From a virus, in IMG/VR virus record IMGVR_UViG_3300021085_000004, positions 1 to 32,018 of that record: DNA of 32,018 nt, one strand, 5' to 3'. Below are positions 128-29,606 of this stretch, piece by piece (within the stretch, counting starts at the first letter, position 1; each line of letters opens with the position of its first letter). The notes beneath the pieces are model-generated. The model saw only the letters and a list, made by a program, of their open reading frames with translations, did no database searches and was not told where the DNA came from. Made by a program: the position numbers and the translations under genes.

Positions 128-199
128 TATCCCTAACGATACAGTAGGTTCAACTGATTCTATAAAGAATGGACTTCGTGCATTTATTTTTGTACTCAT
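1..199 (-). CDS. Repeat-containing tail-associated protein, N-terminal part (gene spans contig ends)
   Basis: This is the start of a 493-residue protein whose gene crosses the circle junction. The ATG at 199-197 overlaps the stop of the upstream neck gene (TAATG). The frame stays open to base 1 and continues at 31891 down to 30609, giving 1,482 nt on the circle. The first 66 residues begin MSTKINARSPFF and enter the first of three imperfect Ig-like repeats, each opening near a Cys (FDCTTANL). The protein is not recognised by name. Its position between neck and tail genes suggests a tail-tip or tail-decoration role, which is an inference. Confidence 0.85.
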   Translation of the reverse strand, partial: MSTKINARSPFFIESVEPTVSLGIFDCTTANLLNFAVSSDGDVTEPSILNGTIIDRTATSFASNTS

Positions 200-705
200 T
201 ACTTTTTATTTAATGTAAACTTTAAAAATTCTTCTACGTCTAATCCGTATGCTTCTATAACTTGGTCTGGTAAGTTTTTAAATCCTTGTTCAAATGGTTT
301 AGTAAAAAACAAACTAGGTTTAATACCTTTCCTAAATATGCTTCTTGCAATTAAGAATCCTATTGTCTTGTAATTACCCTTTTGAAACTTACCTTGTTCG
401 TCTCTTAATCTAATGCCTTTTCTTTTTGCCCAATCTGACAATGGTTTAATAGGTGGCATTTTGCTTTTATAACTATAAGGTGTATCGTATTTCTTTTCTG
501 TACCACTTACCCCTTTGTCTTGAAAATTACCATAACCTAAATCCCAACTTAATTGGAATGAATTAGGACTTACCTTTAATACACCATCTAAACGTTTATA
601 AAGACCCTTAGTATCGTTCTTCTTTAGTCTAGTAAGGTTACGTCTTGCTTGACTAGAAACATACTTTCTAAAGTCTTCTAATGATTGTTTAGTATTTGTT
701 AGCAT
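199..705 (-). CDS. Putative neck/tail-completion protein (HK97 gp10-like)
   Basis: This 168-residue basic protein has a helical N-terminus rich in Lys and Arg, then a central segment with WDLGYGNFQDKGVSG and a PPIKPLSDWAKRKGI motif, and a C-terminus with an FFTKPFEQGF patch. That layout (basic helix, central GxxxxDKG-type loop, then P-x-LxxWAxxKG) recalls the HK97 gp10-like neck proteins that join head and tail. Its start overlaps the end of the preceding 151-residue gene by 7 nt, and its stop overlaps the next ATG. The family assignment is from pattern memory and moderate. Confidence 0.6.
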   Translation of the reverse strand: MLTNTKQSLEDFRKYVSSQARRNLTRLKKNDTKGLYKRLDGVLKVSPNSFQLSWDLGYGNFQDKGVSGTEKKYDTPYSYKSKMPPIKPLSDWAKRKGIRLRDEQGKFQKGNYKTIGFLIARSIFRKGIKPSLFFTKPFEQGFKNLPDQVIEAYGLDVEEFLKFTLNKK

Positions 706-1154
706 ACAGTCATATCGTTTTGTACAATTACGTCAAATGTTGCAACCCATCCTGCTAACTTGTTTTCAAATCTATCTACAAAAGGTTCACATCCTACTGC
801 TCCTTCTATTTGGAATAGGTCTGTATATAAGTCTCCCCTTTGTAATATTGCTATTAGTCTATTTACTATTGCTAGTTGTGTATTTAGTACGTCTTGTTCG
901 TTGTCGTTTCCTACAAATATATCTGTAACTTCATCTTTAGATTCGTCTACAATATCCATAGCTAAAACACTAATATTAAAAGTGAGTGTATTGTTTAATA
1001 CGTTGCAGTTATTTACTATGATATGTGATAATGGAAATATAGTTTGTTTGTTTAAATCTACATCGTCTAAACTACCATAAGAAACCGTATTTACAAAAGG
1101 CTCTGCATTTAGAGTATCTTTTATTTTATCCGTTACGTTGTAAAATCCTGTCAT
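699..1154 (-). CDS. Putative tail terminator/head-tail joining protein
   Basis: This 151-residue acidic protein starts MTGFYNVTDKIKD. It has an alternating strand/helix pattern with a middle section about a LNTQLAIVNRLIAIL helix and a C-terminal strand GWVATFDVIVQN. Size, fold pattern and position (after a tail-assembly chaperone, before a gp10-like gene) match tail-terminator or tail-completion proteins of siphoviruses. The ATG overlaps the stop of the upstream -1 frame (ATGA). This is evidence that ribosomes reach the end of that alternative frame. Confidence 0.55.
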   Translation of the reverse strand: MTGFYNVTDKIKDTLNAEPFVNTVSYGSLDDVDLNKQTIFPLSHIIVNNCNVLNNTLTFNISVLAMDIVDESKDEVTDIFVGNDNEQDVLNTQLAIVNRLIAILQRGDLYTDLFQIEGAVGCEPFVDRFENKLAGWVATFDVIVQNDMTVC

Positions 1155-1420
1155 CTGTTTTTAATTAATTGTGCTTCTAGTTGGTTCTTTTCTTTTTCAA
1201 ATGCTAAATACATTAAACACTCGTGAAAGTTTAGTTTAGTGATATGTTCAAACCTTGTAACATCTCCTTTAGCGATTCCATAGATTGATTGATACCATCC
1301 CCATTTTTTGCCAAAGTTTGCAGCTGCTCCGTAGTTAGTTCCTTCGGTACTTCCTGACTCAAATAGTTCAGGGTAGTTTTCAATAACTCGTTGTTTAAAT
1401 TGTAAAAAAAAAACATACAT
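1151..1420 (-). CDS. -1 frame extension of tail assembly chaperone (GT-like)
   Basis: This frame is -1 relative to the 1893-1231 gene and overlaps its last 190 nt. A shift on the T10 run would join residues 1-163 of the upstream frame to 84 residues read from here (LQFKQRVIENYPELF onward), giving a product of about 247 residues. The extension has well-formed protein features: a GKKWGWYQSIYGIAKGD segment, an LNFHECLMYLAFEKEKN helix and a charged tail. It ends in ATGA with the next gene. An ATG at 1420 could allow separate initiation, but it has no convincing start context. Expression by frameshifting is inferred. Confidence 0.7.
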   Translation of the reverse strand: MYVFFLQFKQRVIENYPELFESGSTEGTNYGAAANFGKKWGWYQSIYGIAKGDVTRFEHITKLNFHECLMYLAFEKEKNQLEAQLIKNR

Positions 1421-1893
1421 CCCATTACTACATCTAGTGGAATACCTTTCATTAGGTCAGCATTATCTAACCCATCGTACTCTTCTATTTGATATCTATC
1501 CCCTTTGTCTAATGTAATTGGTCTATAAAGAACTGTCATTGCTTTGTGCATTGTTTCCCAGTTCGTGAAGTTTTCGTCTAAGTCTACATACTCGCCTAAT
1601 GTCATATCGTCAAGTACAGGTATAAAACCATAAGTAATCCCTTTGTGTTTAAACTTAGGAATCAAATCTTGCTTCTTGTCAAACAAGTTGTTTATATCGT
1701 TTAGTATTTCCTGAACGTATATATATTTAATCTTTGCAATATCCTTTAAGTTAAGGTTACAAAATATCTCAACTGTTTTGTGCATCAAGAAACTACTATC
1801 CTGATTGTCATCTGTATTTATCTCTGCAAACTTTTGGTATTGCTCTAATGTTATTTCAGATAAACTACTTGGTACTTGTATTTCAACTTTCAT
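1231..1893 (-). CDS. Tail assembly chaperone, short form (G-like)
   Basis: This 220-residue protein begins MKVEIQVPSSLSEITLEQYQ. Its middle portion (FKHKGITYGFIPVLDDMTLGEYVDLD, then MHKAMTVLYRPIT) resembles a family found beside tail genes in flavobacterial phages. At residues 160-163 the gene runs through ten T residues (MFFFY). The last 57 codons overlap a second protein-like frame (1151-1420), as expected for a lambda G/GT-type chaperone made in two lengths. The reading frame shown is the unshifted product. A TATTGT promoter-like element sits 6 nt before the ATG. The role, holding tape measure and tube subunits during tail assembly, is inferred. Confidence 0.75.
   Translation of the reverse strand: MKVEIQVPSSLSEITLEQYQKFAEINTDDNQDSSFLMHKTVEIFCNLNLKDIAKIKYIYVQEILNDINNLFDKKQDLIPKFKHKGITYGFIPVLDDMTLGEYVDLDENFTNWETMHKAMTVLYRPITLDKGDRYQIEEYDGLDNADLMKGIPLDVVMGCMFFFYNLNNELLKTTLNYLSQEVPKELTTEQLQTLAKNGDGINQSMESLKEMLQGLNISLN
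1404..1413 (-). other. Programmed -1 frameshift slippery site (T10)
   Basis: Ten consecutive T residues on the coding strand, between ATG and TAC in the 0 frame, supply a T-TTT-TTT slippery heptamer. Both the 0-frame and -1-frame continuations look like real protein. Slippage would happen after Phe-163. Confidence 0.65.
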
Positions 1894-2940: not shown

Positions 2941-4110
2941 TTAATAAATGTAATAATTCCCTTTATTAGGATTCTCTAGTTGGTCTGTTAAAACGTACCT
3001 AGCTGCATCAATACAATCTGGGTGTTCTCCAGTTGGTTTCTGTAATGTGTTACCTTCTTTATCCTTTGCCCATACATAACCACCTAATTCTCTTTTAAGG
3101 TTCTTAGAACGGCTTGTAACAAATATTTCATTTTGGTTTATTAAGTTGATTCCATATACTACTGAATCCCTCCCTTTACTTACACCGTGTATATTGTTTC
3201 CATATTGTTGTAGTTCTGCAATAGACTTAGGTTCTGCTGAATCAGCTGTAATACTTTCTTTAATATTAGATGCTTCTAAGAATCTATGTATATCCCTGTT
3301 TAACATTCCCTTCTTATAAAGTACCTCATCAAATATATAAGAATCGTTCCATTTGTATAATGCTATTAATGTTGTTGGGTCTACACTATATCCAAAGTCC
3401 ATTCCATAACCTAATAACCTTGCTTCAAATGGTACAGTATCTATTTCTTTCCAGTCAGGAATACAAGCACCCTCTAAAGAGCCAATTTCTCCAAGTCCGT
3501 AGACTCGCCACCACGAAGCCCAGTAGGTTGATGTCTTTCCTTTCTCCTTTGCTTTCTCTATTTCGTTTACAATGCTTACAGGTAAACTATCGTTGTCTTT
3601 ATAAGTTAGTGTAATAAAGTCTGTGTCTTCTTTTCCTATCAATTCCTTATCTACCCAAAATACACTAGACGGATTGTAGTCTAACCATACGTTTCCACTT
3701 GTTCTTACTATTAGTTGTTGATAAGCATCAAATGGTATATTGTTGCACTCGTTAATATATAGGTCTGTTCTTCTTGCTCCTCTTAGTTTATCTGGTTGGT
3801 CAGTACTAAAGAACTCTATATAGCTTCCATTTGTAAATGTGTATTTTAAGGTACTCTTATTTAGTTGCACATCCTTATACCTATTCATTGACTTTAAAAT
3901 GCCTAAGAAGTCTTTATATGCACCTCTACGTAAATGTGGTACACTTTCACTTACTACACTTATTTCTTTATCCCTGTTCTTTATAGCATAATCAATTAAT
4001 ATAAGAAGTATGCAAATAGTTTTACCTGCACTAGTTCCACCCCTTACAATCTTAGTACGACTGTTTAGGCTTCTTAGTTTAGTAAGTGCTTTTGTTTTTT
4101 TAACCTGCAT
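2941..4110 (-). CDS. terL: Terminase large subunit
   Basis: This 389-residue DNA-packaging motor has an ATPase domain with Walker A GGTSAGKT (residues 24-31) and Walker B LYINE (about 117-121). The RNase H-like nuclease domain follows: GMDFG with Asp-238, ITADSAEPKS with Asp-290, and GEHPDCIDAARY with Asp-365. It docks on the portal, hydrolyses ATP to translocate DNA, and cuts concatemers. At 389 residues it is a compact member of the family, complete at both ends. It follows the putative small terminase by about 30 nt and precedes a terminator. The packaging mode (headful or cos) cannot be read from the sequence. Confidence 0.95.
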   Translation of the reverse strand: MQVKKTKALTKLRSLNSRTKIVRGGTSAGKTICILLILIDYAIKNRDKEISVVSESVPHLRRGAYKDFLGILKSMNRYKDVQLNKSTLKYTFTNGSYIEFFSTDQPDKLRGARRTDLYINECNNIPFDAYQQLIVRTSGNVWLDYNPSSVFWVDKELIGKEDTDFITLTYKDNDSLPVSIVNEIEKAKEKGKTSTYWASWWRVYGLGEIGSLEGACIPDWKEIDTVPFEARLLGYGMDFGYSVDPTTLIALYKWNDSYIFDEVLYKKGMLNRDIHRFLEASNIKESITADSAEPKSIAELQQYGNNIHGVSKGRDSVVYGINLINQNEIFVTSRSKNLKRELGGYVWAKDKEGNTLQKPTGEHPDCIDAARYVLTDQLENPNKGNYYIY

Positions 4111-11886: not shown

Positions 11887-12297
11887 CTAAAGAAGTTTTT
11901 TAACTTCATCAGAGTAGTGTTGAAACATTTCCTCTAATTCTATACTTGTAAATTTAGTTATTTTATTACTTTTTTGGTGTAAATTTTCAGAAAGTTGTTT
12001 ACCAAGATATAAACTATATTTGTATTGTTCTCCACTTCTAAACATATTACATCCTACACATTGTGGTTTTACATTATCTTCATCCCATCTAGTAGAGTAA
12101 TGTTTTCTACTCATAAAATGCCCTGCTTGTATTCCGCCTGTTTTCCAATGTCCTTTTTTACCACAAGTAACACAAGTGCAAATATCATTCTTAGAGTTTT
12201 TAAGTCTTATGTATTGACTAAATACAACATCTAATTTTTTAACTAGTTTGCTTCTTGTTGGTTTTTTAGAATTTTTTGGCATTGTTTTTCTAAGCAT
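11887..12297 (-). CDS. ninG: NinG/Rap-like recombination endonuclease
   Basis: This 136-residue protein fits the lambda NinG family. It has a basic N-terminus, a zinc-binding CVTCGKKGHW (Cys-42 and Cys-45), AGHFMSRKHYSTRWDEDNVKPQC (58-80) and QCVGCNMFRSG with Cys-80 and Cys-83. The His-60 region is HNH-like. Lambda NinG (Rap) is a structure-specific nuclease that resolves Holliday junctions in recombination. The gene overlaps the small upstream gene by 8 nt and is followed by a terminator. It is shorter than lambda NinG, with the conserved core complete. Confidence 0.88.
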   Translation of the reverse strand: MLRKTMPKNSKKPTRSKLVKKLDVVFSQYIRLKNSKNDICTCVTCGKKGHWKTGGIQAGHFMSRKHYSTRWDEDNVKPQCVGCNMFRSGEQYKYSLYLGKQLSENLHQKSNKITKFTSIELEEMFQHYSDEVKKLL

Positions 12298-12526
12298 CTA
12301 GTGATTTAAGTAATAAACTACCTGAATCTTCATCTATTCCTTTTATTTGCTTATATATGTATTTAGAGTTTTTTTTTACTTCTAACCTTTCTGCTTTTGT
12401 AGAATCGCTTCCTAAGTTAGTGTACATATTACAATCTAATTTTAGTAGTTTGTCAGTTCTTTCTTTAATGCTTAATGCAAAATCTTTAGCGTATTGTTCT
12501 GCTTTTTCTTTTATATCTGTTTTCAT
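12290..12526 (-). CDS. First early gene, helical, unknown function
   Basis: This 78-residue protein starts MKTDIKEKAEQYAKDFALSI. It is mostly charged helices with KKNSKYIYKQIKGIDED near the C-terminus. It is the first gene after the host-type promoter at 12569-12599 and is followed with an 8-nt overlap by ninG. An A/T-rich leader (TTTAAATAAATAAT) precedes the ATG. I recognise no family. As the first early gene it could be a host-takeover or regulatory factor, which is speculative. Confidence 0.6.
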   Translation of the reverse strand: MKTDIKEKAEQYAKDFALSIKERTDKLLKLDCNMYTNLGSDSTKAERLEVKKNSKYIYKQIKGIDEDSGSLLLKSLDA

Positions 12527-19264: not shown

Positions 19265-21040
19265 TTACTTATTTACAAATCCGTTGTTTGGCATATCCGT
19301 TGGTCGTTTAGCCACATTTGAATCATTCTTTTCAGGTGTAAACCCTTCCTTTTTTGCTTTGTTTACGCTTACCTCTGCTTTTGGGTTTTTTGCATCTGGT
19401 TCTACTCCTTTTGCCATATAAGTTTTACGCATCCAAAAATGATGGCACGAACCTCCACCTTTAAACTCCCAGATTGAGTACGTGTTTGCACCACCAAGTC
19501 CCCAACCTGCATTTACAGCTTGGCTTCCCATTTGAATTATATCTTCTTTGCGATATATCTTTTTTGCAGCTACCATTTTCTTACAAAATTCTCTACTATT
19601 TGCAGCTACTTTTAAAGGTGCATACTGATAACGTACCTTGAATTTTAAACCGTCAGCTTCTCCATCTTGTTCACTTTTTGCATTAGGTCTTGCAGCACCA
19701 GTTGAAGCCAAACCAATCATTTTATCTAAAGCTTCTTCTTGTTCGTAGTCTACTGCTCGTTCATCTACTAATTCCCATTCGTCAAGGTTTTCTTCTTCTC
19801 CAAATTCTTCTAACAAGTCAAATGCTTCGTCATCATTAAAAGATTCTTCTTTAGATAATTTAGTACTATCACAACAAGATAATTTAACACCAGTTTCTTC
19901 TTCTCTAGATTCGTCTGTTATTGCGTTATCTGTTTCAATGAATTCAAGCGGTTGTAAGGTCTTAAAATATAATTTAAGTGATATACCATTAAAAGATAAT
20001 ATATCGTCAATACAGTCTATTAAAAGGTCTTGATAAGGCTTTATAGTAACGTTGTTAAATAGTAGTGAAGCTGTTTTTATTTCGTCAGCATTATTTCCTA
20101 GTCCGTTGTTACCTGTTCTAATACCTAAAAGTAAAGGAGAAGTAATACGGTGTGCAACCATTAACTTATTAGAGCATTCAGTAGATAAATATTCGTAATG
20201 TGCAGGAGCATCATTTAAAGGTACATCGTCAATAGTAGTTTTACTTTCTGCATTGTTGTTAAATGCTATAATTACCTTTTCTCCACGTGAACCTGTAAGC
20301 TTGTGCATTACATCGTTCTTAATACTTAACTGTTGTTCTCTGTCAGGTATTCCGTTGTTGAAGTTTACTACCTTCGTACCACTAAAACCATTTTGCACAT
20401 CGTTAATTAAGTAGTCAGATACTTCTGATTCTAGTTCTGCATAGGCTAATGCACCTTGATAATCTACTGGACAATAATAATCGTAACCAGATACATATTT
20501 TTTAGCTATTTTTATTTCAGGTTCTGTACCATTACCATATCCAAAGGAAGCAATACGTTTAGGTTTGTCATTTGGTTTTATTTTAGACCAATCGTAATGA
20601 TAATAGTAAGCTTCTATTTTTCCATCTTCGTTGCATTTTTCTGCACGTAATGTTTGACGTGGAAAGTGTTCTGCTTTATATACTTTTTTGTCTTTGTAAA
20701 GTATTTGAAAACTTGCTTCTCCTAATAGTTTTAAATCTAATGCAGATTTACGTAAACAATCGTTAGAAAATATAGAACGCATTGCAGCGTATTCTTCTGT
20801 TTTACTACTACTATCTAAAGCATCTAAACCTTTTCCATATATCATAGAACTTACACCGTTAATAATGGCATTGTTAGTAGCACTATTGGTATAAAGGTCT
20901 ATTAAGTAGTTATAATAATTGTTATCGCTTCCGTAAGCTATCCAATCTTTTCTTTTGTCTTCTACTATTTCAGGTTTGTTGTAAGTAGATAAATTTAAAA
21001 CGTGTAATCCACCTTCTTTTTTGTGTTGATTTCTTGCCAT
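19265..21040 (-). CDS. Portal protein with extra C-terminal domain
   Basis: In this 591-residue protein, residues about 1-380 fit a phage portal: WIAYGSDNNYYNYLIDLYTN, NGVSSMIYGKGLDA, LDLKLLGEASFQILY, VNFNNGIPDREQQ, then a segment about AHRITSPLLLGIRTGNNG and NADEIKTASLLFNN. After an acidic linker (EEFGEEENLDEWELVDE) comes a separate domain at about 465-542, with FKVRYQYAPLKV, SREFCKKMVAAKKIYRKEDI, GWGLGGANTYSIW and SCHHFWMRKTYM. The portal forms the ring through which DNA enters and leaves. The added domain resembles parts of head-morphogenesis proteins in other Bacteroidetes phages. Its role is unknown. Confidence 0.88.
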   Translation of the reverse strand: MARNQHKKEGGLHVLNLSTYNKPEIVEDKRKDWIAYGSDNNYYNYLIDLYTNSATNNAIINGVSSMIYGKGLDALDSSSKTEEYAAMRSIFSNDCLRKSALDLKLLGEASFQILYKDKKVYKAEHFPRQTLRAEKCNEDGKIEAYYYHYDWSKIKPNDKPKRIASFGYGNGTEPEIKIAKKYVSGYDYYCPVDYQGALAYAELESEVSDYLINDVQNGFSGTKVVNFNNGIPDREQQLSIKNDVMHKLTGSRGEKVIIAFNNNAESKTTIDDVPLNDAPAHYEYLSTECSNKLMVAHRITSPLLLGIRTGNNGLGNNADEIKTASLLFNNVTIKPYQDLLIDCIDDILSFNGISLKLYFKTLQPLEFIETDNAITDESREEETGVKLSCCDSTKLSKEESFNDDEAFDLLEEFGEEENLDEWELVDERAVDYEQEEALDKMIGLASTGAARPNAKSEQDGEADGLKFKVRYQYAPLKVAANSREFCKKMVAAKKIYRKEDIIQMGSQAVNAGWGLGGANTYSIWEFKGGGSCHHFWMRKTYMAKGVEPDAKNPKAEVSVNKAKKEGFTPEKNDSNVAKRPTDMPNNGFVNK

Positions 21041-21381
21041 TATAAAACTATAAAGTCGTTAGCTACTGTATTTTCTGTAAATTCGTTCTTATGTACGTTG
21101 TACGTTGTAACGTTTTGGTTAGTACAGAAGATTTTATCCTTAAAAACTGTTTCTGAACTATTGTTAATTTCTAACATATACATAGTGTCTTCTACTAAAG
21201 TAAAAACAGAACTATATTGGTAGTAATAATCTAATGCGGTAAATGTTGTTGCAGTTGAACTAAATACTTCTGTATTTGTAGATTCGTTTTTTATCTTAAT
21301 TGTATATGTAGTTCCTTGCGTGTATTCTCTAGGTATAAAACTAAAGGTTTGACTGTTCGTAGAACTTTGTAATATTATCAT
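21040..21381 (-). CDS. Conserved strand-rich phage protein, unknown function
   Basis: This 113-residue protein starts MIILQSSTNSQTFSFIPREY. It is nearly all beta-strand, with TYTIKIKNESTNTEVFSSTA and KDKIFCTNQNVTTYNVHKNE. I recall similar proteins near structural genes in flavobacterial phages but know no function. It is the first gene after the TATTGT element at 21388-21412 and ends at the first base of the portal start (TAATG). The fold pattern would suit an Ig-like virion decoration protein or a connector subunit. Confidence 0.6.
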   Translation of the reverse strand: MIILQSSTNSQTFSFIPREYTQGTTYTIKIKNESTNTEVFSSTATTFTALDYYYQYSSVFTLVEDTMYMLEINNSSETVFKDKIFCTNQNVTTYNVHKNEFTENTVANDFIVL

Positions 21382-21387
21382 ATATAT

Positions 21388-21412
21388 ACAATAAAATAAA
21401 GTTAATTTTGTT
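21388..21412 (-). promoter_or_regulatory. Phage late promoter-like element before portal unit
   Basis: AACAAA (21412-21407), 13 nt, TATTGT (21393-21388), 6 nt, ATG at 21381 on the minus strand. It restarts transcription just after the terminator of the tail-tube gene, consistent with a promoter. Confidence 0.7.
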
Positions 21413-21427
21413 AATTTAAAGACATAA

Positions 21428-21454
21428 AAAAAGGGGCTAAATGCCCCCTTTAAT
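21428..21454 (-). terminator. Rho-independent terminator after tail tube gene
   Basis: The stem AAAGGGG/CCCCTTT (arms 21445-21451 and 21430-21436) closes an 8-nt loop and is followed by a T-run on the minus strand. It lies 17-43 nt downstream of the tail-tube stop. Confidence 0.88.
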
Positions 21455-21470
21455 ACCTAGTAAATAATTA

Positions 21471-22022
21471 CTATGAGTTTGTACCTACTGTAACCGTTAC
21501 AGTTGCACTTCCCATTCCTGCGTATGGGTCTGCACTTGTTGGTGAATCTACAAAGTTAGCAGGTTTTAATTCTTGTGCATTAAAAGTAAGCGTGTAACCT
21601 GAAAGGTCTGCCATTGCAGCACCTGTTACTATTGTTCCACCTGTTACTTCTGCACCGTGTTCTAATCCCATTACAAATACATTACCATTGTAATCTTCTA
21701 CCGCTATATGAGGTCTTCCGTATGCTAAAAGTTTTACCTCTTTGTTGTCCTCTTTTGATAGTTTCTTAAAAGTAATATTTAATGTTTGGTCAAAGAATGT
21801 TGTACCGTTTTCTCTTGAAGAAGTTATAGCTTGTTCAAAGCTACTATTCCCCTTTAATTCATATTTGAAAGCAGTAAAAGTTCCACTCAAATCAGTAATT
21901 TGGTCATCAGCATCTTGTGTTACTGTTCCTAAGTCTCCAAAGTCAGTAAAATAAATTGCTCTTAGTCCTCCAACTACATCTTTGCAAGGTTCTTTTCTAC
22001 CTCTAGTTAAATCACAAGCCAT
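21471..22022 (-). CDS. Major tail tube protein
   Basis: This 183-residue protein begins MACDLTRGRKEPCKDVVGGL. It continues with AIYFTDFGDLGTVTQDADD, FTAFKYELKGNSSFEQ, SSRENGTTFFDQTLNITFKK, and VKLLAYGRPHIAVEDYNGNVF and EHGAEVTGGTIVTGAAMADL. This is the sequence pattern of tail tube proteins in Bacteroidetes phages. Subunits stack as hexameric rings through which DNA is delivered. It is flanked by terminators on both sides (22036-22073 upstream and 21428-21454 downstream), so it forms its own unit after the capsid gene. The gene is complete and probably highly expressed. Confidence 0.85.
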   Translation of the reverse strand: MACDLTRGRKEPCKDVVGGLRAIYFTDFGDLGTVTQDADDQITDLSGTFTAFKYELKGNSSFEQAITSSRENGTTFFDQTLNITFKKLSKEDNKEVKLLAYGRPHIAVEDYNGNVFVMGLEHGAEVTGGTIVTGAAMADLSGYTLTFNAQELKPANFVDSPTSADPYAGMGSATVTVTVGTNS

Positions 22023-22035
22023 CTTTTTTTATATT

Positions 22036-22073
22036 AAAAAAGGGTAGGTAAGAAATCCCACCTACCCCTTTTG
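22036..22073 (-). terminator. Strong hairpin terminator between capsid and tail tube genes
   Basis: The 8-bp stem GGGTAGGT/ACCTACCC (arms 22060-22067 and 22042-22049) closes a 10-nt loop and is followed by TTTTTT on the minus strand. No TATTGT element lies between it and the tail-tube ATG at 22022, so the tail tube may depend on read-through. Confidence 0.92.
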
Positions 22074-22092
22074 GTTATTTAAAATTTATTTA

Positions 22093-23019
22093 TTAAGAAT
22101 ATAGTACGATGTCGCTTCCTATTCCGTAGTTTACTCCTGCAGTAAATCTCATTACTACTCTAACATTTTGTGAACCATCAATGTCAGCCATATCAATTAC
22201 TTTTACTTCATTTTGGTCTGATAATAAACCAGTTCCAAAGTATAAGTTAGATTTCTCTGCGGCTACCATAGTATCGTCTGCAAGTCCGTTAGCTACTGCG
22301 ATTTTTACGCCATCGTAAGAAAGACCCCCTCCGTTGTACCATTGAGTTCCTTTGTTGTCTGTACCTGCACCACCAATAGTTGCTTGGAATCCACCTAATG
22401 CTCTTGTGTATGCACGTGCTACGTTTTGAGATACATAAATTAACATATCTTCAGAAGTGTAAAGTGTAGAAGGAATTGCATCTACAACCAAACCAATTTT
22501 ATCAATTACGTTTGCTGCTGTTACTGCTGCTCCTGCTCCTACATCTATAATATCAGCATCTGCTAACATTAGTTCTTTGAATCCACCAAACTGACCATCT
22601 GTTGCAGCTGCTCCATTCCAAATTGATTGCTCAGTTCTTTGTGCTACTTTTGCAGCTACGTGACCGATTAAGAAGTCCGAAAATGACGGAGGAAGTGAAT
22701 CAAATGCTGAGTAGCCTTGACTTACAGCTTCCCAATCATTATGAAAATCTGCTTTACAAATCTGTAAATTTACTTGTTGGAAATCTGGTTGTAAGATTCT
22801 TTCAGTAAGTGTAAGTGTAGAAGTTGGTGCAAAGTCACATCCTGCATCTTTTACTAGACCATCAGTAGAAACCTTTTTTAATACTTCTTTAAATTTAATG
22901 TTTGGTTTAACAGTAATTAAACCGTTATCCAAAGTCGCTCCAGAGAGAAGAGCCGCCGAGATGTACTGTCCAGCTGATTCTCCTGCGTAAGTAGTTGTAA
23001 TACTTGTAGTTGTTGCCAT
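22093..23019 (-). CDS. Major capsid protein, HK97-type
   Basis: This 308-residue protein starts MATTTSITTTYAGESAGQYI. A region with TLDNGLITVKPNIKFKEVLK, KDAGCDFAPTSTLTLTERIL and NLQICKADFHNDWEAVSQGY leads to WNGAAATDGQFGGFKELM and YTRALGGFQATIG. The C-terminus is a strand-rich P-domain-like section (LYFGTGLLSDQNEVKVIDMA, MRFTAGVNYGIGSDIV). Its position after a scaffold gene and before the tail tube, and resemblance to capsid proteins of flavobacterial phages, support the call. The strong terminator after the stop suggests heavy transcription. No delta-domain is obvious within the protein because scaffolding is separate. Confidence 0.85.
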   Translation of the reverse strand: MATTTSITTTYAGESAGQYISAALLSGATLDNGLITVKPNIKFKEVLKKVSTDGLVKDAGCDFAPTSTLTLTERILQPDFQQVNLQICKADFHNDWEAVSQGYSAFDSLPPSFSDFLIGHVAAKVAQRTEQSIWNGAAATDGQFGGFKELMLADADIIDVGAGAAVTAANVIDKIGLVVDAIPSTLYTSEDMLIYVSQNVARAYTRALGGFQATIGGAGTDNKGTQWYNGGGLSYDGVKIAVANGLADDTMVAAEKSNLYFGTGLLSDQNEVKVIDMADIDGSQNVRVVMRFTAGVNYGIGSDIVLYS

Positions 23020-23025
23020 TTTGTT

Positions 23026-23616
23026 TTATTTTTTAATATTAGATATTTTTTGTAGAACTCTATCTATTGTAGAAGTTCCACGATTTTGTGAGTAAAGGTT
23101 TAGTGTTTTACTATCACTTGCTTCAGGATTATGGTTTACTTTTTCAACTTTTGAAAATTCTTCCTTAACTTCTTCCACAATTTCTTCAACAGTTTCTTCA
23201 ACTGATAATTCGTCTTTCTTGTCAATCATTGCTTTAATTTCGTCAATCATTGATTTAACTTCTGCTAAGTCTTCTTTTGTAGCATAAGCCATTTCTTCTT
23301 CGGCAGCTTCAACTTCTTCAGCTTCTACTTCTTCTTCTGCAGGTGCTTCTTCAGTTGCTTCTCCAATAGACTTAATAATACCTTCTTCTTCAATAATCAA
23401 TGCTTGACCATCTTCTAAAGTGTAGTCTCCTACTGGTAGTGCTACTTTTTCGTCTTCAGTTACAATAAAAACCTCTTTACCTTCTGCAAATTCTTCAGCT
23501 TCTATAATAGTTCCGTTTTCTAATGTAGCTTGAGCCAATTTAATTTCTTGGTTTTCTTCGGATAGTTCTAATCCGATAACCTCCTTTACTTTGTTTAACA
23601 TATCCGTTGCTTTCAT
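23026..23616 (-). CDS. Capsid scaffolding-like protein
   Basis: This 196-residue acidic protein has a strand-rich first half (ATLENGTIIEAEEFAEGKEV, VALPVGDYTLEDGQALIIEE). A long Glu/Ala-rich region follows (EEAPAEEEVEAEEVEAAEEE, about 88-107), then helical KEDLAEVKSMIDEIKAMIDK with a Val/Glu coiled coil. The basic C-terminus is DRVLQKISNIKK. It lies 6 nt upstream of the capsid gene. The composition, with an acidic helical middle and basic C-terminal tail, is that of scaffolds, which bind the capsid protein through a basic end and are lost on maturation. Confidence 0.8.
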   Translation of the reverse strand: MKATDMLNKVKEVIGLELSEENQEIKLAQATLENGTIIEAEEFAEGKEVFIVTEDEKVALPVGDYTLEDGQALIIEEEGIIKSIGEATEEAPAEEEVEAEEVEAAEEEMAYATKEDLAEVKSMIDEIKAMIDKKDELSVEETVEEIVEEVKEEFSKVEKVNHNPEASDSKTLNLYSQNRGTSTIDRVLQKISNIKK

Positions 23617-23623
23617 ATATATT

Positions 23624-23648
23624 ACAATAAATTAATATTTACTTTGTT
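23624..23648 (-). promoter_or_regulatory. Phage late promoter-like element before scaffold/capsid unit
   Basis: AACAAA (23648-23643), 13 nt, TATTGT (23629-23624), 7 nt, ATG at 23616 on the minus strand. The gap to the ATG is one base longer than in the other copies, while the 13-nt internal spacing is unchanged. Confidence 0.7.
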
Positions 23649-23661
23649 GTGTTTTTAATTT
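23643..23661 (-). repeat. 19-bp direct repeat overlapping promoter-like element, copy 1
   Basis: AAATTAAAAACACAACAAA on the minus strand is identical to 24409-24391. Each copy begins with the last Asn codon and stop of an upstream gene and ends with the AACAAA half of a TATTGT element. This suggests duplication of a promoter cassette. Confidence 0.8.
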
Positions 23662-24029
23662 CTACCAATATTAGAAAGGTCAGCTTTTGCTTTATTGGAT
23701 AATTTTTCTAATTCAGATAAATCCGACTTTAATGAAGATAATCTTGAGGGTTCGTCAACACCTAATTCTTCAAGTTCATCTTTAAGATATTCCATTTCAT
23801 CTTCAGCACTTCCAATATTATCTAAAAAATCAAAACGATAAATATCGTGTGCTTTTCCTACCAACTTTTGAGCATCTTCTAATGCTTCTTCCAACATTTC
23901 ATATGCTCCATAGGCGGATTGTATATATCCTTCTATTTGGTTCATAGCATTTAATTGTACAGGCATTAATCCTTTTTCACTTCTTTCTTTAGCTAACTTG
24001 GTAAATATTCTTTGTACACTTGGTTTCAT
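23655..24029 (-). CDS. Helical virion-associated protein, unknown
   Basis: This 124-residue protein is almost wholly helical: a basic N-terminus (MKPSVQRIFTKLAKERSEK), MNQIEGYIQSAYGAYEMLEE and an acidic helix around EDEMEYLKDELEELG, ending KSDLSELEKLSNKAKADLSN. It shares its transcription unit with a similar-sized helical gene. I recognise no family. Its position next to scaffold and capsid suggests a head-assembly or internal protein, an inference from context. Confidence 0.6.
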   Translation of the reverse strand: MKPSVQRIFTKLAKERSEKGLMPVQLNAMNQIEGYIQSAYGAYEMLEEALEDAQKLVGKAHDIYRFDFLDNIGSAEDEMEYLKDELEELGVDEPSRLSSLKSDLSELEKLSNKAKADLSNIGRN

Positions 24030-24032
24030 ATC

Positions 24033-24365
24033 TTATTTTAATACTTTTGTTAATGTTTTCTTTTGCTGTTCATAAGCATTTATAGCTTGTTTCAGCTGTT
24101 TTGCTTCGGGTATTTCTACACCTAATTTTTTAGCTTTAGCTATTGCATCACTAAGCATCTTTTTAGAAACACTATAAACCGAATCAACTCTATTCATTTC
24201 CCTAACACCCTTTGCTATTGCATCACGTGCATCAGTAGCAAACTGCATTAGGTCATCTCTACCTTTGTCTAATTCTTTTTCAAGTTTTTTTAATTCACTT
24301 GCAATGCTAAGTTCTACTTTCTGAGTAGAAAACTTTTGAAGTATCTCTTTTGTTTTATTATCCAT
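24033..24365 (-). CDS. Helical virion-associated protein, unknown
   Basis: This 110-residue charged helical protein has KFSTQKVELSIASELKKLEK, a middle section with RDDLMQFATDARDAIAKGVR and MNRVDSVYSVSKKMLSDAI, and a basic end (EQQKKTLTKVLK). It starts 6 nt after a TATTGT-like element (AATTGT variant) and ends 4 nt before the next gene. No family is recognised. Coiled-coil character and the neighbouring scaffold suggest head morphogenesis. Confidence 0.6.
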   Translation of the reverse strand: MDNKTKEILQKFSTQKVELSIASELKKLEKELDKGRDDLMQFATDARDAIAKGVREMNRVDSVYSVSKKMLSDAIAKAKKLGVEIPEAKQLKQAINAYEQQKKTLTKVLK

Positions 24366-24371
24366 ATTTAT

Positions 24372-24396
24372 ACAATTATATATTTAAAGTTTTGTT
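24372..24396 (-). promoter_or_regulatory. Phage late promoter-like element before helical gene pair
   Basis: AACAAA (24396-24391), 13 nt, AATTGT (24377-24372), 6 nt, ATG at 24365 on the minus strand. The -10-like box differs from TATTGT at its first base, the only such deviation among the seven copies. Confidence 0.65.
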
Positions 24397-24409
24397 GTGT
24401 TTTTAATTT
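24391..24409 (-). repeat. 19-bp direct repeat overlapping promoter-like element, copy 2
   Basis: Identical to 23661-23643 on the minus strand. It covers the last Asn codon and stop of the cysteine-rich gene and the AACAAA half of the element before the 110-residue gene. Confidence 0.8.
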
Positions 24410-24759
24410 GCTGCAATACAAGTATCACAATCTACATAAACTGTTTCAGAATCTATATGGTGTTCTCCACTTGATACTGTATTTAAAACAGTATAACAAT
24501 TAGAATGTCCTGTATTTTCAAAGTTAAGGTAGTAAACACTTCCTACTGTAAGAGTTCTATCGTGTACGTGTATTTCTTTGTGCATACTATGACCGCATCT
24601 TTGAACCTTATAGTAATTAACTACACCTGTATGAACCTCGCCAGTTATATTGCCAATTCCTTGAGCCTGAAAACTACCATCACAACATTTAGTAGAGTAC
24701 TTGCCATCTTTACAAAGGCATCCACGCTTGTCATTTTGTGGGCTTGGTATTCTACTCAT
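24403..24759 (-). CDS. Cysteine-rich conserved virion-region protein
   Basis: This 118-residue protein starts MSRIPSPQNDKRGCLCKDGK. It has GCLCKDGKYSTKCCDGSFQA and QGIGNITG near the start, HSMHKEIHVHD in the middle and DCDTC at the end. Together with QRCGH and HSNCYT this gives nine Cys and several His, enough to hold metal sites or to cross-link. I recall GCLCKDGxYSxxCCDGS from flavobacterial phages without a known role. It overlaps the protease gene by 8 nt and is probably a minor structural protein. Confidence 0.65.
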   Translation of the reverse strand: MSRIPSPQNDKRGCLCKDGKYSTKCCDGSFQAQGIGNITGEVHTGVVNYYKVQRCGHSMHKEIHVHDRTLTVGSVYYLNFENTGHSNCYTVLNTVSSGEHHIDSETVYVDCDTCIAAN

Positions 24760-25666
24760 TCTCTATGCTTTTAAGTTTTGATTCAGCCCAAGACTTTGCA
24801 CTTTTACCACCCCATAATAAATAAGATATATAACCACAGCTTTCGGTATCTCCTTTTTCGTAGTAAACTTCTGCTCTGCTTAAATAACTAAACATCCTTT
24901 TTATAGTTTCTACTGTTACTGGTTTACCTTGTGCTAATTGTTGAGCTCTTATTTTTCCTACTTGTGTAGCACATTTGTTATCTACCTTTTCGTTTAAGTC
25001 AATACCTCTTTTAGCATTGTTGCTAACTGATTCAGGATAGTCGGAATAGCTTTCTAAATCGTAGTCCTCTCCTTTTAAAAGTGCTGTTAGTTGTTCTATT
25101 ATGTGTTGGCTTTCTTCTTCTTCTATTTTTGCTAATTCGTTTGGTTCGTTAGGTCTTTCTAACTTGTCAGCAAAGTAGCCTTCAATACTAAATCCTTTTA
25201 CTTTTCCACTTTTAACGTAATCGTTCCAAACATCATCATTGTGTACTTTCATTGAAAGCATCCAAGTACCTATTGGTACATCTAAATCGTAGAACCTTGT
25301 TTTATCTTTTTCATCTTCTACTATCCAACTTTCAACTGCAGTTAAACCAGTTAAAGGCATTTGGTGTTCTAGTGTAGAATTGTTTTGGTTACCTCTTATA
25401 AAAAATAACTCTGAAGCTTTACGTACAGTTGCTTTAGAAAAATATATATAATATTCGTTGTCTTCGTTTTTTCTGTATATTGGTTTATTGGGAATCAAAG
25501 CAGCACCCATAAGAATCCGCTTCTCTTTGTTCACCTCTGCAAATTTAAACTCTTGGTTTTTTAATGCTATAAAGTCGCTTTCAATGGCAGGGGATTCTAC
25601 AATTGATACCGCTTCTATTCCTGATACTTCGTCTTCTTCGTCTATAAATAGTTCTACTATATCCAT
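24752..25666 (-). CDS. Prohead protease (XkdF-like) with C-terminal extension
   Basis: In this 304-residue protein, residues about 1-170 match the XkdF-type head maturation protease: VSIVESPAIESDFIAL, KRILMGAALIPNKPIYR, LEHQMPLTG with His-101 and VKGFSIEGYF with Ser-160, the likely catalytic pair. The C-terminal part (DLNEKVDNKCATQVGKIRAQ, FSYLSRAEVYYEKGDTESCG, YISYLLWGGKSAKSWAESK) is a separate domain also seen fused to head proteins. The protease would cleave scaffold and capsid during maturation. A TATTGT element lies 6 nt before the ATG. The gene is complete and precedes the helical and scaffold genes. Confidence 0.85.
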   Translation of the reverse strand: MDIVELFIDEEDEVSGIEAVSIVESPAIESDFIALKNQEFKFAEVNKEKRILMGAALIPNKPIYRKNEDNEYYIYFSKATVRKASELFFIRGNQNNSTLEHQMPLTGLTAVESWIVEDEKDKTRFYDLDVPIGTWMLSMKVHNDDVWNDYVKSGKVKGFSIEGYFADKLERPNEPNELAKIEEEESQHIIEQLTALLKGEDYDLESYSDYPESVSNNAKRGIDLNEKVDNKCATQVGKIRAQQLAQGKPVTVETIKRMFSYLSRAEVYYEKGDTESCGYISYLLWGGKSAKSWAESKLKSIENE

Positions 25667-25672
25667 ATTAAT

Positions 25673-25697
25673 ACAATACTTTTTTAGTGTTTTTGTT
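25673..25697 (-). promoter_or_regulatory. Phage late promoter-like element before protease unit
   Basis: AACAAA (25697-25692), 13 nt, TATTGT (25678-25673), 6 nt, ATG at 25666 on the minus strand. It lies in the 33-nt gap after the tape-measure stop. Confidence 0.7.
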
Positions 25698-25699
25698 AA

Positions 25700-27289
25700 T
25701 TATCCAATACTAGCTGTTTCAACTATATTTCTATCTAATGCTTGTGCGGTGCTTACATCGTTACTAACTACAAAAGCTTTTATAGGTTGTTTTTCGTCTT
25801 GTCCTATTGCTTGTGCTAATTGGTTTGTTTCAGATGCTCCTACTACGTTAAATGCTGGGGGTGCTGAAGACGGTACGCTTGGTCTACTACCTCCTCCACC
25901 ACCGCCACTTGAACCTGACAAGCTAGGTTTTTTAGTTGCAAGAATAGATTTTAGTTGTACCCCTGCAAATGCTGCTGCTAATCCTGCTTGAACTATTGGA
26001 TATGCAGGAAAAAAAGTTGTTATTGGTGAAGATTGAGCAGTCTTATAAGCGTTTTGTACACCTTCAATACCTGCAGTTGTTACTTGTGCTACTGCAGCTG
26101 CTTTTCCTATTGCAGAACCTTCCCCTGCAAGTTGTATAATACTACCTAAAGTTCTTTTGTCTTGTTCAATAGCGTTTGCAGTTGCAGCTTCTTTTGCTTT
26201 TTTCTTTTCTTCTTCTGACTTTATAGCTGCTTCGGCTGCTTCTGCATAATAATCTAAATCTTTTTCTTTAGCTTCTTCTATTAAGTCTTGTCTTTCTCTT
26301 TCTAAAGAATTTATATTGGTTAGTTGCTCTGAACGGAAACCTGCAATTTGTGCTTGTACTGCTTCCTTTTCGTTTTGTGCTTCTAATAAAGCTATGTAGT
26401 TTTCTTGGTTTTGGTTTTTATCGTATTGTGCTTGTGCAGATGCTAATTGTACGTCTACTTGTTTCAACATCGCAACTTCTTGTTCATCTAGTATTCTACC
26501 TAGTTCTACATTTGCTGCAATACGTTCTTCAATAGTTTTAGATTCGTCATCTCTTATTTGTCTTTGTAACTCTGCTTGTCTATCGTACTTTTCAATCAAT
26601 CCTTGTTGTTTAACCGCAGCCACTTCAGCTGACTTACTCAAATCTACATTTGACTTAGCTGCATCAACCGTACTTTTAACATAACTTTTTGTTGCAGTAA
26701 CAGCCTTAGTAACAGTGTCTGCTACTTTGTCTACCGTTCCATCTACACCAGTCAATACATCTATATATTCTTTTCCAGCCATTTTTGCAGATTCCATAGC
26801 ACCGTCAAAGTCTCCTTCAAATACTTGCTTAAATGCAGTAGATAAATAACCTAGCATTTCTAAAGTACTGTTAAACCTTTCTATGATATTATCCTTTATT
26901 GCTTGACCTAGATTTTTTATAGATTGAACAGGGTCATCAAAGATTGCTTTAAAATAATCAATTACATTACCTATGTTTCTATCTAAGAAATTAAAGAAAT
27001 CATTAAATCCTAAACTAAGAGCTTCAAATGTTGTGTTAAAGGCATCTGCTACTTTTTGGTTTTCATTAAAAACTTCTACAAGTTTACCAAAGGCTGCAAT
27101 AGCTAAACCAATACCTGCAGCTTTTAAAGCAGTACCAATACCTTTAATCCCTTTAGCAGCTACATTAGAAGAATCTTTTACATCTTCAAGATTTTTGTCT
27201 ATCTTCTGTACACTTTTTGCAACTCCCTCTAAGTCCTTTTCAGCTTTATCTACTCTAGCTTCTATTTCAATGGTCTTTGTTACCGACAT
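25700..27289 (-). CDS. Tape measure protein
   Basis: This 529-residue protein has an N-terminal coiled coil (TKTIEIEARVDKAEKDLEGV) followed by hydrophobic GIGTALKAAGIGLAIAAFGK (about 49-68). Next come AFNTTFEALSLGFNDFFNFL and long Ala/Glu/Lys/Gln-rich helices with ERQDLIEEAKEKDLDYY. Its C-terminus has a Gly/Ser/Pro-rich stretch (SGSSGGGGGGSRPSVPSS). This composition and its size in the tail block identify the protein that sets tail length and helps inject DNA. At about 0.15 nm per residue it predicts a tail near 80 nm, a rough estimate. The start overlaps the 48-residue gene by 10 nt. Confidence 0.88.
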   Translation of the reverse strand: MSVTKTIEIEARVDKAEKDLEGVAKSVQKIDKNLEDVKDSSNVAAKGIKGIGTALKAAGIGLAIAAFGKLVEVFNENQKVADAFNTTFEALSLGFNDFFNFLDRNIGNVIDYFKAIFDDPVQSIKNLGQAIKDNIIERFNSTLEMLGYLSTAFKQVFEGDFDGAMESAKMAGKEYIDVLTGVDGTVDKVADTVTKAVTATKSYVKSTVDAAKSNVDLSKSAEVAAVKQQGLIEKYDRQAELQRQIRDDESKTIEERIAANVELGRILDEQEVAMLKQVDVQLASAQAQYDKNQNQENYIALLEAQNEKEAVQAQIAGFRSEQLTNINSLERERQDLIEEAKEKDLDYYAEAAEAAIKSEEEKKKAKEAATANAIEQDKRTLGSIIQLAGEGSAIGKAAAVAQVTTAGIEGVQNAYKTAQSSPITTFFPAYPIVQAGLAAAFAGVQLKSILATKKPSLSGSSGGGGGGSRPSVPSSAPPAFNVVGASETNQLAQAIGQDEKQPIKAFVVSNDVSTAQALDRNIVETASIG

Positions 27290-27426
27290 AATTCAGTTTT
27301 AAATTGTTTATACGCTTCTTTAATACTATTAGGATATTTGTACTTACCTAAAGCTATATAAGTAAGTTCTCCTATTTCTTTTTGTTTCTTTGCTATCTCT
27401 AGCATTTGTAATGTGTTTTCTATCAT
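27280..27426 (-). CDS. Small coupled protein upstream of tape measure
   Basis: This 48-residue protein starts MIENTLQMLEIAKKQKEIGE and continues LTYIALGKYKYPNSIKEAYK. Its ATG overlaps the stop of the 727-residue tail gene (ATGA) and its stop lies inside the tape-measure start. Translation is therefore probably coupled on both sides. Small helical proteins before a tape measure are usually chaperones, but the usual frameshifted chaperone is elsewhere here. No family is recognised. Confidence 0.6.
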   Translation of the reverse strand: MIENTLQMLEIAKKQKEIGELTYIALGKYKYPNSIKEAYKQFKTELCR

Positions 27427-29606
27427 ATCGTAGTTTCTCCTGCATCTGCAGTTGTTCTTATACTATCAACGGTTGCTAATGAACTATCTGCGGTTCTTAT
27501 TAAGTTACCAACAACTTCGTCAAATTCAACTTCAAAGTTTATTACTTCGTTTAGTAATTCAAGTTCTGTTTTACCGTTTTCAAAGTTTGTTACAATCTTA
27601 TTTATCTTGTACAAGTCGTTAAATATTACAACCTTGTCTTGTAGTTTAATATTTAGTATAATGTTTAAAGGTAAGAAAGCAGTAAACTTAAATAACCTCC
27701 TAGAAGAGTTTACAGATTCGGTAATATACTTTTTGTAATACGTATTAAATAAAGAGTTATTAGCGTTTGTGTTTGTAAACTCATTTTTTTCTTGACCAAA
27801 ATGTATTGACTGACTTGTAGCGGTTGTAGGGTCGGCTAAATTACTAGGTATAAAGTATGTTGTTAAAACATCTTTAGTTCCGTTAGGACTATCTAAAACG
27901 TTTATAGGAGTGCCACTTGCTATCTTATGTCCGTAAAATAAAAATGGTTTACCTAAATGGGCTTCTTGGTCTTGGTTTACTGACCATCCCCATTGTACTG
28001 ATGGTGTTTCCGAACCTCCTGAATCTATTAATTTCTCAAATTTGTGATGTTCAAATGGAAGTTTAACAATATAATCTTCTCCTTCAGGAACATCTTCAAC
28101 AATTTCAGATATAGAACCCCACTTAGAACCAAATATTTGTTTATGAAAAGCTGAAAAGAAAGTTTCATTACCTTCGTATTCAAACGCTATTCTATTATAA
28201 GGTAGTACAGAACTAACTTCCGAAGTTGTTGTATCTATATGTTCGGTAATATCAAAGGTTTCTGTAGAACTTGCATAGAAGCTATCTAACGGTAGTATAT
28301 TTATTGTATCATTATCATAAAATGCTGTAAGGTTAAACGCTTTAAAAAGACCTGTAAGAAAGTCTAGTACACCAATGTCAGGCATTTCATTAACTACGGT
28401 AGTTCTATAATTAACATTTTGTGTATAAGTTCCAACTCTTGTAGCTTGTTTTATATTTACTGCTCCTGAAAACTCTATAACGCTTTGTGTCATTGTAAAG
28501 GTTGCAGCAGTATTTGAAATAATACTTATTCTATGTGGGTTACCTCTACCTGTTCCTTGATTTGCGGTAGGTGGTATTAATACTAATCTATCTGCTTGTG
28601 AAATAATAATATCGTTACCCCCAGTTGCAGTTTGTTCAGATTCAAAAAATGGGTCTTCGTAAGCACCATTAGAAGTAACCTTTAAAGTGTATTCAGTTCC
28701 TACAGGGGCTTGTACGCTTATAGTTATTATCCTATCTCCAAAATACCTTCCTTTATTATAGTATGCTTCTTCTTGAAAACCTCTTTGTAATTCTATATCT
28801 CCACCTTGTGAAGTAGTTGTAATGTACATTAAAGCAGGTCTGTTACCGTCTTCTTGTTCTAACTTTCCTTTTTGTTTACTAAGCCACAAATACAAATTGT
28901 AATAAGCAGGATTGTTAGAATTAAAAAAGTCAGTACTAAACTTTAAACCATATCTATCTTCTATTGCTTTTATAAGCAAGTGTATTCTTACTGCAGGTTT
29001 TAGTTCGTTTACTGGTAGACCGTGATTGTTTACACCGTTTGCAGATATATTATAAGTTGCTGCGGTGTCGTCAGTTGAATTGTATACCAATCTATTTGTA
29101 TGTGTTACTATTGGATATATAACCGCTTCTTGTACTGTAGTATCGCCTACACTTACTTGGTAACCAGTTTGCATCCTACTTTTAATAGTACTAGGTTGAT
29201 AAAGTAATATAGTTGTTATGTTAGTTAGGTCAGATAATTTATCTTTTCCTAGTATGTCTTTTAACTCTATTGTTTTACCAAAGAAAGTTATGCGGTAATT
29301 TATTGGACTATTGTTCTTCATTTGAACGTTTTCCAATTTTATTTTACCACTCTTAAAAGGTTTGTAGTTTAAATATAACTCACTTTCTTTTTTAGACCTT
29401 GCATCAAATCCTTGTATAGATGGATTGTAAAAGTGTTTAAATATTTTGTTATTTACTTTAGAAGCAGGTACGTTGAATGTTCTACTAAAGTCTGTAAATA
29501 TCTTTTGTAAATCTAAAACATCCTGTAAGCTTTGTGTAAGTGTTACACTTTCATTATCGTGTAACTCTACTTGCTCCCCTTCTATATATAATTGTAGTTG
29601 AATCAT
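27423..29606 (-). CDS. Large tail protein (probable tail-tip/hub component)
   Basis: This 727-residue protein begins MIQLQLYIEGEQVELHDNES. The N-terminal 130 residues contain TDFSRTFNVPASKVNNKIFK and FKSGKIKLENVQMKNNSPIN and IELKDILGKDKLSDL, a pattern I recall from flavobacterial tail proteins. The middle has strand-rich repeats (TISVQAPVGTEYTLKV, then DRLVLIPPTANQGTG), and MPDIGVLDFLTGLFKAFNLT resembles a hub or baseplate segment. The end (DKVVIFNDLYKINKIVTNFE) is hub-like. The likely role is tail tip or hub assembly near the tape measure, inferred from context. The start overlaps the upstream stop by one base. Confidence 0.65.
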   Translation of the reverse strand: MIQLQLYIEGEQVELHDNESVTLTQSLQDVLDLQKIFTDFSRTFNVPASKVNNKIFKHFYNPSIQGFDARSKKESELYLNYKPFKSGKIKLENVQMKNNSPINYRITFFGKTIELKDILGKDKLSDLTNITTILLYQPSTIKSRMQTGYQVSVGDTTVQEAVIYPIVTHTNRLVYNSTDDTAATYNISANGVNNHGLPVNELKPAVRIHLLIKAIEDRYGLKFSTDFFNSNNPAYYNLYLWLSKQKGKLEQEDGNRPALMYITTTSQGGDIELQRGFQEEAYYNKGRYFGDRIITISVQAPVGTEYTLKVTSNGAYEDPFFESEQTATGGNDIIISQADRLVLIPPTANQGTGRGNPHRISIISNTAATFTMTQSVIEFSGAVNIKQATRVGTYTQNVNYRTTVVNEMPDIGVLDFLTGLFKAFNLTAFYDNDTINILPLDSFYASSTETFDITEHIDTTTSEVSSVLPYNRIAFEYEGNETFFSAFHKQIFGSKWGSISEIVEDVPEGEDYIVKLPFEHHKFEKLIDSGGSETPSVQWGWSVNQDQEAHLGKPFLFYGHKIASGTPINVLDSPNGTKDVLTTYFIPSNLADPTTATSQSIHFGQEKNEFTNTNANNSLFNTYYKKYITESVNSSRRLFKFTAFLPLNIILNIKLQDKVVIFNDLYKINKIVTNFENGKTELELLNEVINFEVEFDEVVGNLIRTADSSLATVDSIRTTADAGETTI

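Follow-up and report, generated by a model that had tools for sequence, protein, structure and literature searches.

Recoding in tail chaperone genes is usually identified from a slip site located just before the stop codon of the upstream frame, whereas in the lineage described here the site lies 48 to 252 nt before it. The hallmark of tail chaperones is a gene of the tail module that yields two products through a -1 shift. The recoding of lambda G/GT is described as ribosomal frameshifting (PMC5009743). The mean distance from slip to stop is 26 nt among the SEA-PHAGES chaperones and 36 nt in the phages of Xu et al., and recall is poor at larger slip-to-stop distances (PMC10885494). Homopolymers of at least 8 nucleotides are typical of transcriptional slippage (PMC3711429). 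The locus presented here is best read as probable programmed -1 recoding of a tail-assembly-chaperone-like protein in a marine flavobacterial phage, following the logic of lambda G/GT.

The window analysed was the whole 32,018-nt record IMGVR_UViG_3300021085_000004, which has a GC content of 32% and whose late genes are encoded by the minus strand. The features of the locus and its surroundings were as follows.

1893-1231, minus strand: 0-frame gene of 220 aa in the ORF list, giving the unshifted and probably major product of the chaperone-like gene
1404-1413, minus strand: T10 slippery run (A10 on the plus strand), read TTT TTT TTT T at codons 161-163
1411-1405, minus strand: slip heptamer T_TTT_TTT within the T10 run
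1154-1405, minus strand: -1 frame extension of 84 aa with a conserved (K)WGWYxSxYGxxKGD core, the C-terminal part of the predicted 247-aa fusion
1351-1404, minus strand: proximal dual-coded segment, the first 18 post-slip codons, with amino-acid selection in both frames
1234-1350, minus strand: distal overlap, 39 frame-0 codons kept free of stops without detectable frame-0 amino-acid selection, frame -1 dominating
699-1154, minus strand: next gene, 151 aa, phrog_30964, its ATG overlapping the -1 stop
199-705, minus strand: tail completion/Neck1-like (HK97 gp10-like) protein of 168 aa, phrog_29822
2941-4110, minus strand: terminase large subunit (Pfam Terminase_3C, Terminase_3), upstream of the frameshift gene
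25700-27289, minus strand: tape-measure-like protein of 529 aa, phrog_32985

A 127-nt direct terminal repeat (1-127 and 31892-32018) marks the record as a complete assembly, circularly permuted or circular, in which the gene at 2-199 runs on from 32018.

A -1 slip is predicted to join 163 residues of frame 0 to 84 residues of frame -1 in a 247-aa fusion, whose TGA stop at 1151-1153 shares an ATGA with the start codon of the following gene. The -1 frame ORF ends at 1151 and shares 190 nt (1231-1420) with the 0-frame gene as ORF overlap; 171 nt of these are coding codons after the slip, so that 57 codons are left in frame 0 past the slip site and 84 in frame -1. The initial annotation had given these coordinates and numbers correctly. 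Its proposal of a -1 slip at the T run, leading to a fusion that ends in ATGA, is supported by the architecture and by the relatives, and the unusually long overlap that it described, with 57 extra residues on the unshifted product, was borne out by a slip-to-stop distance of 171 nt in frame 0. The T10 run alone is unremarkable, given that 1.9 homopolymers of at least 10 nucleotides are expected in DNA of 32% GC. When the -1 protein was recoded synonymously, frame 0 remained open as far in only about 1% of cases, and in the reverse test frame -1 remained open as far in about 0.3% of synonymous recodings of the 0-frame protein. Since the arrangement is this rare among recodings and is kept in every full-length relative examined, it stands above chance. 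Elsewhere in the window, an A9 run on the minus strand (12369-12377) in the ORF at 12290-12526 (minus strand; codons GTA AAA AAA AAC) could also be a slippage site.

Relatives were sought by three routes, namely the 0-frame protein, the -1 frame protein and a DNA pattern. With the 0-frame protein as query, 80 close relatives of 61-100% identity were found in IMG/VR, and a wider 0-frame search returned at least 590 matches there, more than 500 of them beyond the 80 close relatives. Four loci were located in bacterial genome records, three of which were labelled Flavobacteriaceae, Bacteroidetes and Flagellimonas. The DNA pattern accepted any run of at least 7 Ts and would have shown T7, T8 and T11, but the 174 distinct loci that it recovered contained T9 (n = 155) or T10 (n = 19) and no other length. 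The -1 protein families gave 78 distinct loci, again with T9 (n = 66) or T10 (n = 12) only; the two sets overlap and share assembly technology. All complete loci that were read displayed T9 or T10 at the same place, and in each of them frame 0 was open over a long stretch and frame -1 measured about 81-92 aa. The few shorter -1 frames belonged to loci at contig ends or to a locus with a disrupted -1 frame (L229). In the latter (L229:174-) the -1 frame appears to be broken after WGWYSSI and to run into an unrelated continuation, perhaps in a rearranged or cut contig. Codon-sized indels within the overlap of relatives leave both frames intact, and a divergent locus (L086) has kept 9 Ts although the run is displaced by one base and the flanking residues are altered.

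The arrangement is also present in cultured phages. The sequence of Nonlabens (Persicivirga) phage P12024L, read directly, contains a true homologue (ORF 40/41, 30% identity in frame 0) that shares a T9 run, a homologous -1 domain (LKWGWY) and the neighbouring genes, and P12024S gave a tblastn match in both frames. In P12024L frame 0 stops 25 residues past the slip, compared with 57 in the IMG/VR record. The gene pair is annotated there as two hypothetical proteins, with no frameshift annotated.

Homopolymer runs are error-prone, and the two frames could in principle represent a decayed gene or a single 247-aa gene in which one T was miscounted by sequencing or assembly. The initial annotation had pointed to relatives carrying one uninterrupted gene as the sign of such an error. 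No single fused ORF was found in more than 250 places, drawn from the overlapping pattern-derived and -1-derived sets, in searches able to show T7, T8 or T11. The two frames recur with T9 or T10 only, in independent assemblies and in a cultured isolate, and both evolve under selection. The explanation by error, already refuted on the evidence of the relatives, was rejected and now has next to no probability.

Selection on the two frames was tested in 126 distinct sequences. Substitutions were taken from independent sister pairs, isolated from other changes, and scored against the same nucleotide change placed at random. Among changes synonymous in frame -1, those in post-slip codons 1-18 were strongly conservative in frame 0, with a mean BLOSUM62 score of 2.09 versus 0.00 expected (z 4.6), and those at codons 18-36 (z 0.6) and 36-52 (z 0.9) were not. 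The same test applied to the -1-only tail and to five blocks of the upstream gene gave z values from -1.0 to 0.5, and these null controls indicate that the substitution test is calibrated. In the converse test, changes synonymous in frame 0 were conservative in frame -1 (P 0.006). Stop codons gave a different picture of the distal part. Where a stop was available within the overlap, none of 20 inferred synonymous Leu/Ile/Val changes created a 0-frame stop (10.3 expected), and the distal overlap alone had 0 of 10 against 7.1 expected. Past the 0-frame stop, 40 of 56 such changes did create a stop (Fisher P ~7e-9 versus the overlap). Among the sister pairs, -1-synonymous changes touching a stop of the other frame numbered 0 of 105 in the overlap and 89 of 715 upstream.

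Selection thus acts on both frames, although unevenly. Selection on frame-0 amino acids is detectable only near the slip, where it is clear for approximately the first 18 of the 57 codons; past codon ~18, the substitutions indicate that only stops are avoided and that frame 0 is held open through the overlap. Both continuations had been taken as genuine protein, which holds fully for frame -1, but in frame 0 amino-acid selection covers only ~18 of the 57 codons and the rest is merely stop-free. The codon-substitution analysis suggested along with that claim accordingly found selection in both frames, confined in frame 0 to the proximal ~18 codons.

The 0-frame tail after the slip varies across the family from 16 to 84 residues, equivalent to a slip site 48-252 nt before the stop. 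Most loci have 53-64 residues; L144 has 16, P12024L with its 25 is also near the lower end, other branches have 27-28 or 39, and one branch reaches 84. The AlphaFold model of the 220-aa protein had a mean pLDDT of 80.8 and was confident to about residue 181, and a predicted helix at 153-181 spans the slip site (residue 163), with low confidence beyond. The split into a proximal and a distal part agrees with this helix running through the slip and with the variable tail length in the family. Modelled alone, the 84-aa -1 domain gave a poor fold (pLDDT 65). If only the -1 frame mattered, the long unshifted tail would be an incidental open frame, as might be expected from the variable tail length and from the want of frame-0 amino-acid selection beyond codon 18. 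The clear frame-0 selection on the first 18 codons (z 4.6), however, already refutes this for the proximal part, and stops are avoided across the whole overlap, which leaves an incidental tail highly improbable.

The frameshift gene is surrounded by genes of a tail module. Both in the IMG/VR record and in a Flagellimonas contig (L085), the order is terminase, frameshift gene, phrog_30964, Neck1/gp10-like gene, further tail genes and tape measure. The phrog_30964 neighbour is also present in L167, where the counterpart of the 199-705 gene matches phrog_5 (tail completion/Neck1); the 199-705 protein itself weakly matches a protein annotated as HK97 gp10-like. The tape-measure-like protein has a short match to the annotated tape measure of P2559Y, and its L085 counterpart matches phrog_32985 as well as phrog_339, tail length tape measure (9e-9). 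The frameshift gene is positioned five genes upstream of the tape-measure-like gene, and in L085 four genes lie between them. The late order at 19265-30598 is unusual, with the tape measure followed by further genes, the major capsid protein and, last, the portal; the tail block has terminase and frameshift gene at its far end.

The sequences themselves establish the architecture, the universal T9-T10 run and the selection on both frames, and the two-product architecture together with the tail-module context suggests a chaperone role by analogy. Most translation would stay in frame and produce the 220-aa protein, whose last long helix spans the slip site and is followed by a loosely ordered tail. 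A minority of ribosomes would slip one base back on T_TTT_TTT, whereby the 84-residue -1 domain with its KWGWY core would replace the last 57 residues and the 247-aa fusion would end at the start codon of the following gene. If the gene works as lambda gpG/gpGT do, the N-terminal part common to both products would coat the tape measure protein, the -1 domain would bring in the tail tube protein, and the product ratio would be set by the slip rate.

Two overlapping ORFs with a slippery heptamer at which a -1 shift could link them were detected in all full-length relatives examined, and the tail module contains a tape measure gene, but the frameshift gene is not flanked by the major tail gene on one side and the tape measure gene on the other. 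No chaperone family in Pfam, NCBIfam or PHROG matched it, its best PHROG match being a family of unknown function. A fold search of the PDB and a second look with VIA gave no meaningful match, and the viral-fold matches to named chaperones in Foldseek were very weak (E 0.25 and 1.0). The fold predicted for the 0-frame product recurs in BFVD among many uncharacterised proteins from uncultured Caudovirales (35 hits, E up to 1e-3). On account of the missing tape-measure adjacency, chaperone-family match and solved fold, the gene is best read as one that may work like G/GT without being filed as a member of that family. The designation as a tail chaperone is therefore retained for the two-product architecture and the tail-module context, and qualified by the lack of a family match and the position five genes upstream of the tape measure. 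The -1 recoding might also be real in a different structural protein, of the head-tail or of the tail, with a minority of its copies ending in an alternative C-terminus. Such a protein would fit the absence of a chaperone family or fold match and a gene that follows the terminase and precedes neck/terminator-like genes rather than the tape measure gene. We consider it rather unlikely, however, given the two-product -1 architecture within a tail module and given that no other candidate was noticed beside the tape measure gene, in an inspection that was not systematic.

Programmed -1 recoding at the T run is well supported by the sequences compared; we infer the occurrence of the slip, its frequency and its ribosomal nature. 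The heptamer T_TTT_TTT is suited to tandem ribosomal slippage. Downstream RNA folded no better than shuffled sequences (z -0.03), and no covarying pair was found that would indicate a conserved stimulator nearby. The only conserved pairing, of 8 bp (ACUACCCU with the WGWY codons) and starting ~27 nt downstream, was rejected, showing no two-sided covariation and having both arms explained by coding. A stimulatory structure is not required at all known -1 frameshift sites. Alternatively, RNA polymerase could add one U or drop two at the T9-T10 run, so that a fraction of the mRNAs would encode the fusion. A conserved A/T homopolymer of at least 8 nucleotides is present at the frame junction, as T9 or T10 in all loci, whereas a ribosomal heptamer needs only 7; the divergent L086 retains its 9 Ts despite the one-base displacement and changed flanks, no downstream structure was found, and third-position diversity just upstream of the run is not reduced. 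Yet the residues V/L/I/F-F-F-W/Y (NTT TTT TTT T) alone can fix 9 Ts, and run length does not discriminate between the two mechanisms, since coding already forces nine Ts in most relatives. The lambda G/GT slip is, moreover, described as ribosomal frameshifting (PMC5009743). We regard transcriptional slippage as a possible, though doubtful, alternative. The slip at the T run claimed by the initial annotation stands, but its translational nature does not follow, T9-T10 being also a classical site of transcriptional slippage. A bolder version, which we regard as speculative and unlikely, is that a widespread phage lineage sets the ratio of its two tail-assembly proteins by RNA polymerase slippage at the invariant T9-T10 and not by ribosomal frameshifting, that frame 0 stays open over tens of codons to let unshifted ribosomes reach near the next gene, and that only the first 18 codons serve as protein.

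Programmed -1 recoding of a chaperone-like protein, which we prefer, follows a known principle, but a long version with unequal dual coding, as in this phage lineage, seems not to have been described in the open literature; among open-licence papers, this arrangement was not found for flavobacterial phages. Two selected proteins would be encoded in the same DNA, a natural and deeply sampled case of unequal dual coding. In marine flavobacterial phages generally, the arrangement has probably been mis-annotated as a pair of hypothetical genes. The invariant T9-T10, the breadth of conservation and the proximal/distal split should be informative to specialists, and the mechanism is directly testable because cultured relatives exist.

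No sequence similarity to lambda gpG/gpGT was found. The likeness to that pair, here predicted from sequence, consists of a shared N-terminus, a -1 shift, a minority longer product and a gene in the tail module. Lambda, however, keeps 5 frame-0 codons after the slip compared with 57 here, and its G/GT genes are immediately flanked by the major tail and tape measure genes, whereas five genes separate the present gene from the tape measure gene. Phage P2 E/E+E' likewise has a -1 site and an alternative C-terminus, and its heptamer T_TTT_TTG is of the same kind as T_TTT_TTT, but P2 E ends ~6 codons past the annotated shift site. The P2 and HK97 genes adjoin the tape measure gene, unlike the frameshift gene described here. 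Genes using transcriptional slippage (dnaX of some bacteria, Shigella type III secretion, IS elements) similarly have a long A/T homopolymer between frames, but they are not phage tail genes. With 171 nt from slip to stop, the present locus is well outside the averages of 26-36 nt (PMC10885494).
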